Positions 41,819-44,556 of a stretch of 64,000 nt of DNA are shown in pieces (within the stretch, counting starts at the first letter, position 1; each line of letters begins with the position of its first letter). The stretch lies in contig NZ_BBYK01000071.1 in NCBI RefSeq assembly GCF_001570365.1, forward strand, positions 1 to 64,000, given 5' to 3'. A model generated the notes under the pieces. It searched no databases and was not told the DNA's origin. It saw nothing but the letters and a program-made list of their open reading frames with translations. The position numbers and the translations under genes were made by a program. This DNA is from Microtetraspora fusca. Lineage in GTDB: Bacteria > Actinomycetota > Actinomycetes > Streptosporangiales > Streptosporangiaceae.

Positions 41819-42751
41819 CTAGGCGGTATGCGAGGACAGGGCCGGGGACGCGTTCGGGGGCGCGAGGTCTCCCGCGATCCGGAAGCGGATCCGCTGGCCG
41901 GGGCGGGCCTGGGCGGCGCGGTCCACGTCCCGGGTGCGGACCACCGCGATCACCGGATAGCCGCCCGTCAGCGGATGGTCGGCGAGGAAGAGCGTGGGCC
42001 GCCCCGACGGAGGCACCTGGATCGCCCCCGGCACCATGCCCTCGCTCGGCAGCTCTCCCTCACGCGCCCGTTCGAGAACCGGCCCGCGCAGCCGGATGCC
42101 CACCCGGTTGCTGTCGGTCGTCACCTCGTACGGCTCGGCGCACAGCACGCGCAGCGCGTCGGGGGTGAACCAGTCGTCGCGCGGGCCGGGCAGGATCTCC
42201 AGGACGAGGTCGCCGCCGGCGGGCTCGGGCACCGGGGCGAGATCGACGGCGGGGAACGCGTCGGGCGGCGGCCCGACCGGCAGCAGCGCTCCCGGCGCGG
42301 GCAGGTCGGGTCCCAGACCGGCGAGGATGTCCGTGGCCCTGGAGCCCAGCACCGGCGGCACGTCCACGCCGCCCCGCACAGCGAGGTACGTCCGCACGCC
42401 GCGGGCCGGAGCTCCGAGCTGGAGCGTGGCCCAGCACGGCAGGCGTTCGACCGAGTGGTGCCCGATCGGCCATCGGGTGCCCAGCGGGCCGGTCACGGTC
42501 GCCGGGCAGGCGGCGCCCGCGAGCGCGATCAGCAGGTTCCCGTGCGCGCGCACGCACAGGCCGCCGAACGTCACCTCCAGCGCGGCCGCGCCCTCGGAGT
42601 TGCCGACGAGCCGGTTGGCCAGCCGTAGTGCGCCCCGGTCGGCGGCGCCCGAGCGCCCCACGCCGAGGTCGCCGCGTCCCGGTCGCCCGAGATCCTGCAC
42701 CGTGGTCATCGGCCCGGTCGCCACCACCTCAAGCAGCCCGTACCGACTCAT
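41819..42751 (-). CDS. pxpC: 5-oxoprolinase subunit PxpC
   Basis: About 310 residues of the KipA/biotin-dependent carboxyltransferase-like fold. [19 protein letters not shown] and [15 protein letters not shown] with [17 protein letters not shown] are typical. PxpC acts with PxpA and PxpB to open 5-oxoproline to glutamate with ATP. The real start is ATG 42751; a longer frame to 42784 is a shadow inside the mini-ORF repeat. The ATG overlaps the stop of the third mini-ORF (42748-42751). DUF1445 follows 13 bp later. Confidence 0.92.
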
Positions 42752-42831
42752 GCCCTGTCCTCGCCTGGCGGCTCGGACCGGCATTCGCCGAAGACGCTGT
42801 GCCTATTGATTCGCTCGCTTCGCTCGCTCAT
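42748..42831 (-). CDS. Mini-ORF 3, adjoining pxpC
   Basis: 27 codons from ATG 42831 to TGA 42748, reading MSERSERINRH at the start and EPPGEDRA at the end. Its ATG overlaps the stop of mini-ORF 2 and its TGA overlaps the pxpC ATG, both as ATGA. It differs from copy 1 by K-to-R (AAG to AGG), synonymous CGC-to-CGG and synonymous GAA-to-GAG; the last is shared with copy 2. It has no known domain. It may be a coupling device, a real peptide or a repeat that merely reads open. Confidence 0.45.
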   Translation of the reverse strand: MSERSERINRHSVFGECRSEPPGEDRA

Positions 42832-42902
42832 GCCCTGTCCTCGCCTGGCGGCTCGGAGCGGCATTCGCCGAAGACGCTGTGCTTATTGATTCGCTCGCTC
42901 AT
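42828..42902 (-). CDS. Mini-ORF 2
   Basis: 24 codons from ATG 42902 to TGA 42828, start MSERINKH and end EPPGEDRA. It lacks one in-frame SER (9 bp) relative to the neighbouring copies but keeps the reading frame. It overlaps mini-ORF 1 and mini-ORF 3 by ATGA on each side. Its Glu codon in the PPGED region's upstream arm is GAG, as in copy 3. Confidence 0.45.
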   Translation of the reverse strand: MSERINKHSVFGECRSEPPGEDRA

Positions 42903-42982
42903 GCCCTGTCCTCGCCTGGCGGTTCGGAGCGGCATTCGCCGAAGACGCTGTGCTTATTGATTCGCTCGCTTCGCTCGCTCAT
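42899..42982 (-). CDS. Mini-ORF 1, adjoining pxpB
   Basis: 27 codons from ATG 42982 to TGA 42899. It begins inside the pxpB stop (ATGA at 42979-42982). The three mini-ORFs therefore form an unbroken chain of overlaps from pxpB to pxpC. Copies are nearly identical in DNA. Three substitutions and one 9-bp indel separate them, all of which keep the frame, and two of the three substitutions are silent. Confidence 0.45.
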   Translation of the reverse strand: MSERSERINKHSVFGECRSEPPGEDRA

Positions 42983-43587
42983 GTCGCCTCCGTGAACCTG
43001 ACCCTGGTGCCCGGACGCAGCAGGGCGGGCGGGTCGGCGTCCAGATCCCACACCACCGCCTCCGTACGGCCGATGAGCTGCCAGCCACCGGGGGACTCGC
43101 GCGGGTAGACGGCGCTGAACCCGGCCGCCAGCGCCACCGATCCGGCGGGCACGCGGACCCGCGACTCGGCCCGCCGGGGGACGGCCAGCCGCGGGTCGCC
43201 GCCGGTCAGGTACCCGAAACCGGGAGAGAAGCCGCAGAACGCGACCGTCCAGGGAGTGGCCGTGTGCGCGGCCACGATCTCGCGCTCCGCCAGCCCGGTC
43301 AGCGCGGCCACGTCCTTGAGATCCGCGCCGTCGTAGACCACCGGAATCCGCACCTCGCCCGCGTCACCGCGCGCCCCGGGTGTGGGCCGTACGGAACGTA
43401 GCGCGGACTCGATCGCCCGCGGCGTCGCCGGGGGCTCGAACCGGACCAGCAGCGTTCGGGCCGCCGGGACGATGTCGACGACGCCCTCCGGCGGGCTCGC
43501 GACGAGGGCGTCGTAGAACGCGACGACCTCGCCGAGGTCGTCCAGTTCGGCGAGCAGGGCACGGTCGCCGCAGTGGCGCAGCCGCAT
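42979..43587 (-). CDS. pxpB: 5-oxoprolinase subunit PxpB
   Basis: A 202-residue protein of the KipI/PxpB family. MRLRHCGDRALLAELDD at the N-terminus and FCGFSPGFGYLTGGDPRLAVPRR near the centre are diagnostic. It partners PxpC to activate 5-oxoproline with ATP, and PxpA finishes ring opening. The start follows gaggaggcccg. Its stop overlaps the first mini-ORF, not pxpC itself. In simpler operons pxpB and pxpC are directly adjacent. Confidence 0.92.
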   Translation of the reverse strand: MRLRHCGDRALLAELDDLGEVVAFYDALVASPPEGVVDIVPAARTLLVRFEPPATPRAIESALRSVRPTPGARGDAGEVRIPVVYDGADLKDVAALTGLAEREIVAAHTATPWTVAFCGFSPGFGYLTGGDPRLAVPRRAESRVRVPAGSVALAAGFSAVYPRESPGGWQLIGRTEAVVWDLDADPPALLRPGTRVRFTEAT

Positions 43588-43599
43588 CGGGCCTCCTCG

Positions 43600-44376
43600 T
43601 CAGACCCGGCTGAACGGCGTGAGGTCGATGCCCGCCGCCTCCAGCGCGGCGCGGACGCCGCGCGCGATGGCCACCGCGTCCGGGCTGTCGCCGTGCACGC
43701 AGATCGAGTCGCCGCGCACGACCAGGGGGTCTCCGGCCACGTCGGTGATGGGCTCGCCGCGCGCCATCCGCACGCACCGCTCGGCCACGACGCCGGGGTC
43801 GTGGACGAGGGCGCCCGGCCGGTCGCGCGGCACGAGCGTTCCCTCCGGCGTGTACGCCCGGTCGGCGAAGCACTCGGTGACCGCGGTCAGCCCGGCCCGC
43901 TCGGCGCGGCGCAGCCAGGCGGAGCCGGGCAGGCCGAGCACCGGCAGCCCGGGGTCGAAGGCGCGTACGGCGGCCACGACGGCGGCGGCCTGCTCCTCGT
44001 GCCGGACGATGGCGTTGTAGAGCGCGCCGTGCGGCTTCACGTAGCCGACCCGGCCGCCGGCCGCGCGGGCGAACGCCTCGAGGGCGCCGATCTGGTAGAG
44101 CACGTCGTCGGCGAGCTCGCCGGGCGGCACCTCGATGAAGCGCCGCCCGAAACCGGCCAGGTCGCGGTATCCGACCTGGGCGCCGATCGCCACGCCGCGC
44201 TCGACCGCGGTCTCGCACGTGCGGCGCATGATCGAGGGGTCCCCGGCGTGGAAGCCGCAGGCCACGTTGGCGCTGGTGACGATCGTCAGCAGGGCGTCGT
44301 CGTCGCCGAGGGGCCACCGGCCGAAGCCCTCGCCGAGGTCGGAGTTGAGGTCGATGCGAGTGGTCGGGTCAGCCAC
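43600..44376 (-). CDS. pxpA: 5-oxoprolinase subunit PxpA (LamB/YcsF)
   Basis: About 258 residues. [16 protein letters not shown] and [18 protein letters not shown] are the family motifs, and VKPHGALYN contributes to the active site. GTG 44376 after ggagctgacc is chosen because it gives the family's usual length; the frame is open to 44451 with weaker signals. First gene of the leftward pxpABC operon. A GntR operator lies about 55 bp upstream of the start. Confidence 0.93.
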
Positions 44377-44429
44377 GGTCAGCTCCAGAGGGCGGCTTGT
44401 CGGGTTGATCGCCCTCATAGCGAACGTAA

Positions 44430-44446
44430 GGATTGTTGAACAATCC
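44430..44446. promoter_or_regulatory. GntR (FCD) operator for the pxp operon
   Basis: ggattgttgaacaatcc is a perfect palindrome with one central base. It contains the TTGTnnAACAA-like core that FCD-type GntR regulators use. It sits between the divergent pxpA and GntR genes. Confidence 0.85.
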
Positions 44447-44556
44447 GGCAATCCCTCTGTGGGTAGATTCTTCGATCGCCAGAGTTATCGGGGAGTCCCG
44501 TCGCGTCCTAAGCTCGGGGTTCCAGGTCCTGCGCGTTTCCTGAGAGAAGGGCTGCG

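Follow-up and report, generated by a model that had tools for sequence, protein, structure and literature searches.

Mycobacterial interspersed repetitive units (MIRUs), reportedly described by Supply et al. in 1997, serve for tuberculosis typing. To our knowledge, neither the way in which they move nor the reason for their tolerance by operons is settled. REP/BIME-type repeats are likewise short, dispersed and non-autonomous; they are intergenic and occur in many copies. In one paper (PMC4473831), MIRUs are characterized as short dispersed repeats without dyad symmetry, containing small ORFs that have the orientation of the flanking ORFs and overlap them at both ends. According to a 2025 review (PMC12548453), they appear to be mobile, insert at start codons and couple at a spacing of -4 nt. 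The same review treats the ordinary RTGA stop/start overlap, at which termination is followed by reinitiation; each junction of the array presented here has that 4-nt overlap, and unlike the ordinary case a repeat is interposed, which remakes the overlap at both of its own ends. Searches of the open-access literature, several of which gave mostly unrelated papers, listed nothing recognised as such an element outside mycobacteria.

On our best reading, the repeats analysed here constitute a MIRU-type, coupling-preserving family that is new in sequence and host range and has been tandemly amplified in a pxp operon.

Three repeat units between pxpB and pxpC

The window (the whole stretch of DNA that was analysed, 64,000 nt) carries pxpA, pxpB and pxpC in succession on the minus strand. 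Its features are listed below, with bit scores from R1, a sequence-only profile built from 29 units.

43600..44451, minus strand: pxpA (LamB/YcsF family), start codon uncertain; ORF, Pfam PF03746, E 7.3e-100
42979..43587, minus strand: pxpB, with its TGA stop within the first ATGA; ORF, Pfam PF02682, E 1.5e-62
42987..42991, minus strand: GGAGG at the pxpB end, which has become the Shine-Dalgarno-like site for mini-ORF 1; sequence and duplex energies
42903..42982, minus strand: repeat unit 1, 80 nt, ORF 42899-42982, 27 aa; R1 74 bits, not independent, as the unit belongs to the R1 training set
42832..42902, minus strand: repeat unit 2, 71 nt, without 9 nt of the 5' core, ORF 42828-42902, 24 aa; R1 56.8 bits, not independent for the same reason
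42752..42831, minus strand: repeat unit 3, 80 nt, ORF 42748-42831, 27 aa; R1 68.2 bits
42759..42762, minus strand: GAGG at the end of unit 3, Shine-Dalgarno-like site now before pxpC; sequence and duplex energies
41819..42751, minus strand: pxpC, its ATG overlapping the stop of mini-ORF 3 (ATGA 42748-42751); Pfam PF02626, E 2.6e-83

The 3' end of pxpB reads ...GGAGGCGACATGA and is followed by the three units and then by pxpC, the ORF of which extends in frame to an earlier ATG at 42784 in the ORF list. Each unit opens with an ATGA that holds the stop of the previous frame, and the fourth ATGA is the start of pxpC; these 4-nt stop/start overlaps lie, on the minus strand, at 42979-42982, 42899-42902, 42828-42831 and 42748-42751, with unit starts spaced 80 and 71 nt apart. 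Between the units there are three substitutions (GAA/GAG for E and CGC/CGG for R, both silent, and one changing K to R) and a single 9-nt indel, located within the near-repeat GAGCGAGCGAAGCGAGCGAA. A 5' end shortened as in unit 2 also occurs in units from two other genomes of the genus (G001 and G003), and the indel may therefore recur. The sequence agrees on every count with the first-pass annotation of this DNA, which had claimed three mini-ORFs of 24-27 residues, four ATGA junctions, three substitutions of which two are silent, and a 9-bp indel.

When up to 3 mismatches are allowed, a 22-nt core of the unit is found two times in the window, compared to a mean of 0.01 in shuffles, and in an R1 scan of the window only the three array units score well, the next matches having E values of 0.27 and 0.7. 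No inverted repeats were found within 42600-43100.

A role as RNA structure was considered and rejected. With E values up to 1 admitted, the Rfam search of 42500-43200 yielded a single match, which lies over the pxpB end and is far below the cut-off, and in the alignment of 29 units no conserved structure was found, the consensus folding to -0.6 kcal/mol with 3 pairs.

A dispersed repeat family

The unit is a member of a dispersed repeat family and is not special to pxp. In the following, G000 denotes the genome of the window, G001, G002 and G003 other genomes of the genus, and G064 a close relative. With a single unit as query, matches were obtained in 9 of 60 genomes, the own genome included; the copies of G001, G002 and G003 are 72-92% identical over the aligned part, and each of these three genomes has copies at several junctions. 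The profile R1 matches at E <= 0.01 in 96 of 200 genomes of the taxonomic family (own included) and in 29 of 68 genera; copy numbers in this survey are lower bounds, as about 22 candidates were scored per genome. Deeper scoring at E <= 0.1 gave 32, 19, 21, 31 and 17 matches in G000, G001, G002, G003 and G064, respectively, with a weak tail that is surely mixed.

Copies also occur in other families of the class, beyond the Streptosporangiaceae. A strict, exact 5' pattern occurs at 85 places, which come from 20 of 296 genomes of the class; the reversed pattern gave none. An exact core pattern identified named carriers in 13 stretches: five species of Microbispora, Nonomuraea guangzhouensis, Kutzneria viridogrisea, Kribbella catacumbae, a Blastococcus, a Streptosporangiaceae bacterium and a Pseudonocardiales MAG. 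The genes downstream of the copies include some that, by their N-termini, we take to resemble nuoE, ilvN, murJ, sdhB, lipB and trpC.

Two further observations were made. A different repeat (GGGGCGCGGCGGTGTCTGGACTGAGGAGCGAG... in most cases) ends in a GCGAGCGAAGCGAGCGC core that is without start codon (L004, L031 and L033 in G000; L159 and L164 in G064). In L157, L162 and L149 the GTG of the element follows a promoter-like TAGCCTTCAAACC, as if at the start of a leaderless mRNA, and the next gene is presumably, by its N-terminus, an ArsA-like ATPase.

Architecture and phase of the copies

A unit, mostly 77-107 nt long, runs from an RTGA start (R = A or G) over a Shine-Dalgarno-like site to another RTGA, which is the start of the next gene, with the consensus [A/G]TGAGCGAGCGNAGCGAGCGAATCAATAAGCACAGC ... 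CCGAGCCGCCAGGCGAGGAGGNGGC[A/G]TGA. For the terminal 18 nt of 122 distinct units, the mean energy of pairing with the anti-SD is -11.6 kcal/mol (sd 3.5); shuffles of the same letters reach -7.4, the interior of the unit -2.8 and the sequence immediately before it -8.5. Pairing better than -5 is reached by 94% of the unit ends and also by 85% of the shuffles, so that the ribosome-binding signal is partly a matter of composition. GAGG or AGGA precedes the terminal start codon by 4-7 nt in 105 of the 122 units.

Conservation of phase was assessed with 38 copies, picked by the exact 5' pattern alone in 50 loci taken from the 85 class-wide places; this pattern says nothing on the downstream end of the copies. 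At that end, the mini-ORF of 33 out of 37 terminal copies stops within an RTGA that shares the frame of the following gene; of the remainder, two stop on an RTGA with weak coding signal and two (L118, L136) run into the gene as a new N-terminus. At the other end, the upstream stop has an overlap of exactly 4 nt (+1) in 31 of 35 copies with a clear coding frame and lies away from +1 in 4, two more copies being too weak to call; about one third of such upstream overlaps would be expected by chance, because the 5' pattern itself holds that TGA. From the same counts (31/35 upstream, 33/37 downstream, the strand of the unit being scored), the mini-ORFs have the orientation of the adjoining ORFs. 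In L028, L118, L136, L161 and L176 a copy is in frame with the downstream gene and gives it an N-terminal extension of the MSERSER type.

A larger set comprises the 137 distinct copies that match a 5' pattern, which leaves out two early-stop copies at glyS (L025) and the fused L161. ATGA or GTGA terminates 130 of them, three are fused, two end in GTAA, one ends in CTGA and one runs off the locus end; since copies are related by descent, these raw counts overstate independence. The ORFs derived from 129 of the 130 RTGA-ending copies have 19 different lengths, from 11 to 54 codons and mostly 26-27, the longest representing fused units. The 3' GCGAGG block is present in 101 copies and is read in the three frames 91, 5 and 5 times; L195, in the last group, is an artefact of the pattern. 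Copies that read this block in another frame still reach the next start in register, and copies in other families have unrelated C-terminal halves, yet end on the next start. A single frame in most of the 3' blocks is what shared descent would give, and descent suffices.

These data also bear on the possibility that the repeats encode a functional peptide that is kept for its own sequence; a real peptide was among the readings put forward in the first-pass annotation. Such a function would give one frame in 91 of the 101 blocks as well; the first residues M/V-S-E-R-S-E-R recur in the listed copies, and a copy before trpC is identical in four genomes. However, the 5' residues are demanded by the search patterns and lie in shared DNA, nine copies (10 counted, less the artefact L195) use a different frame for the 3' block, and neither the range of mini-ORF lengths nor the unrelated C-terminal halves fit a conserved product. 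A real peptide is thus unsupported as a general function, and we consider it very unlikely.

The frame is not always kept. L025 (G003:C29:87610-87800) contains two copies in tandem, and in both the seventh codon is a TGA. The downstream gene, which we take to be glyS-like, seems by eye to start independently, and this would be an uncoupled place with relaxed constraint. Overall, the copies at many other operon junctions give strong support to the first-pass view of a maintained phase with maintained overlaps. The opposite picture, a scattered repeat without reading-frame conservation, is right as to the scatter and wrong as to the frame.

Empty sites and the probable origin of the array

The number of units at pxpB-pxpC differs among the relatives: G000 has three units and G001 two, while G002, G003 and G064 have none. 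The G003 junction (locus L041), GAGGTGACATGAGCCGG, is an empty site with a plain ATGA overlap and with a like GGAGG site directly before pxpC. G002 has a 15-nt mini-ORF and no unit, and G064 has a stretch GCGAGGAACCGGCATGA that, as a guess, could be the remnant of a unit end. In other genera (L051, L053, L057, L060, L061), short RTGA-like chains stand at pxpB-pxpC, often 14-15 nt apart and not recognised as the element; the pxpC start region seems prone to small duplications.

Clean, empty RTGA junctions were found at 5 of 10 other loci, the junctions being located by their flanks. With gene names that we assume from the N-termini, these are an ABC transporter junction (empty in G000, G002 and G064), a manA-like one (G001), nuoE (G002 and G064), c7_569 (G000) and c18 (G003); at c18, the copy in the filled site (L161, G002) has diverged and is joined to the gene. 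Other short inserts are present at nuoE in G001, at iclR in G000 and G064, at c39 in G003 and at c18 in G000 and G064. For murJ, liv and lipB, no relative junction was found among the 19 loci compared. The filled/empty pairs at pxp, at other junctions and at trpC fit insertion at start codons.

A target-site duplication longer than RTGA is not claimed. For 73 distinct downstream genes, the flank agrees with the unit end beyond shuffles at -2, -3, -6 and R (0, 6, 2 and 0 of 1000). With a stricter filter and a split by lineage (41 / 25 genes), these values became 19 / 8 at -2, 168 / 9 at -3, 4 / 160 at -6 and 71 / 93 at R, a weaker and uneven signal.

The three pxp units of G000 have pairwise identities of 0.963-0.986 and form one clade (support 100/99). 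Their identity is 0.65-0.85 to four other G000 copies, 0.79-0.83 to the pxp units of G001 and up to 0.89 to a G002 copy. The pxp units of G000 and G001 are no closer to each other than to some copies elsewhere, and the tree is compatible with a shared as well as with independent insertions. The simplest account of the array would be a single insertion followed by tandem duplication in its own lineage. Tandem amplification is common in the family, since in 11 of 13 other tandem sets the units are 0.97-1.00 identical (the other two being L018, 0.859, and L015, 0.92). The near-identity and the single clade confirm one half of a further suggestion of the first-pass annotation, namely that of a young tandem repeat that simply reads open: the array is young. 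Its frame, on the other hand, is not accidental, for dozens of other junctions have the unit too, with the phase kept likewise; this already contradicts the chance reading, to which we attach practically no credence.

The empty site also makes it possible to consider whether the mini-ORFs are a regulatory or rate-setting device specific to pxp and selected to tune the PxpB:PxpC ratio. The duplex energy before pxpC is -7.1 in the window (17 nt given) versus -13.8 in the empty site of G003. PxpC may therefore depend more on coupling than before the insertion, and its level could have been lowered; furthermore, arrays occur at pxpB-pxpC in two species of the genus. Against this, the pxp unit also precedes many unrelated genes, among them the nuoE-, ilvN-, murJ-, sdhB-, lipB- and trpC-like genes mentioned above, and in G003 as well as in G002 and the close relative G064 the junction does without it. 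As an origin of the units, a device for the subunit ratio is therefore unsupported, and we regard it as improbable, if somewhat less so than a conserved peptide.

The copy before trpC

One copy stands before a gene that, by its N-terminus, we take to be trpC (L158, G000:C63:7216-7299). Over 84 nt, the four genomes G000, G001, G064 and G002 have it in identical form. Among the 30 best loci of a search of 100 genomes (L325-L354), the pattern detects a leader ORF in 21, and every one of these ORFs ends exactly on the trpC start. The leaders are 35, 56, 68, 71, 77 or 80 nt long, all 2 modulo 3. In L337 and L353 the leader ORF was missed by the pattern. Seven of the 30 loci have no mini-ORF, and in five of these trpC directly follows the same GGAGGGA-type site. 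Start-codon insertion seems not to need an upstream stop, because no overlapping upstream gene is apparent at trpC. Rfam gave only sub-threshold matches for the trpC leader. The copy, which many of the 30 loci have in diverged form and with varying length, may have been domesticated.

Comparison with MIRUs and REP/BIME repeats

For a direct comparison, MIRU loci were searched with a core that occurs in MIRU292 (PMC7977185). Within a single genus, presumed to be Mycobacterium, this core matches in 15 of 31 genomes, and the reversed pattern in none. Several of the loci have the form ATGA-18 codons-ATGA, and others read through or end otherwise. One unit of this form is found in L281, where the following gene is presumably, by its N-terminus, RegX3-like. 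Tandem copies occur among these loci as well; in L271 and L285-L289, among others, periods of 51, 52, 54 and 57 nt break the ATGA phase and periods of 50 and 53 nt keep it.

Like MIRUs, the present family is dispersed within one genome and has small ORFs that overlap both neighbours in the same orientation, it is without dyad symmetry, and its tandem copy number varies among relatives. By eye, it shares with MIRUs a short GAGCGMAGCGA string and a GAGGAGG..ATGA ending. It differs in size, with units mostly of the length given above versus periods of 50-57 nt for most MIRUs seen, and in its hosts, which are Streptosporangiaceae and other actinobacterial families and not Mycobacterium. Sequence homology was not detected either: R1 gave no match at E <= 1 in the 20 MIRU loci compared, of 30 collected. 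Our best reading is that the family has the structure by which MIRUs are defined and works like a MIRU, a likeness of architecture, the profile being without a sequence match. With REP/BIME-type repeats, it has in common that it is short, dispersed, non-autonomous and present in many copies. Unlike them, it shows no inverted repeat at the array and no conserved RNA structure in the 29 units aligned, and it contains an ORF in the phase of the operon.

Proposed model: a portable cistron

Taken together, the units very probably represent a non-autonomous dispersed repeat that is built as a portable cistron, rests at RTGA starts, keeps coupling and was duplicated at pxp. It consists of an RTGA start, followed by 11-54 open codons, a GAGG(AGG) that resembles a Shine-Dalgarno site and, at the end, another RTGA. 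The element presumably moves or has moved, and would settle at RTGA start codons, mostly where the start overlaps the stop of the preceding gene. After insertion, the old ribosome-binding site would start the mini-ORF, and the stop of the mini-ORF would overlap an RTGA that has become the start of the downstream gene and is preceded by the ribosome-binding site of the element itself. Coupling would survive the insert because the left end is a start overlap, and the right end a ribosome-binding site with a start.

In the pxp operon, one unit would have entered the ancestral ATGA and would then have been duplicated in tandem to three. The mini-ORFs are probably translated and coupled: a ribosome finishing pxpB would re-start at the overlapping ATG, translate the three mini-ORFs of 27, 24 and 27 codons in turn, initiating anew at every ATGA, and arrive at pxpC. 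Copies that break the phase would be lost unless the downstream gene is independent of coupling, and we infer that out-of-phase copies were removed by selection against lost coupling.

Concluding remarks

On a wider scale, it may be speculated that actinobacterial start codons are insertion sites for class-wide mobile mini-cistrons of the RTGA-ORF-ribosome-binding site-RTGA type, of which MIRUs would be one branch. Operons might be reshaped by such elements without breaking translation, and some might become permanent leader cistrons, as at trpC, or new protein N-termini of the MSERSER kind. We put this forward tentatively, as a possibility that is rather less probable than its contrary.

A warning for annotation follows, as MSERSER... 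N-termini and 25-codon junction ORFs can derive from a repeat. Finally, a second family in other actinomycetes, distinct in sequence, variable in copy number and with clean sites of both kinds, empty as well as filled, makes the movement of MIRUs and their tolerance by operons testable, including the insertion target, the requirement for coupling, and the cost or gain in expression that is brought by a leader mini-cistron.
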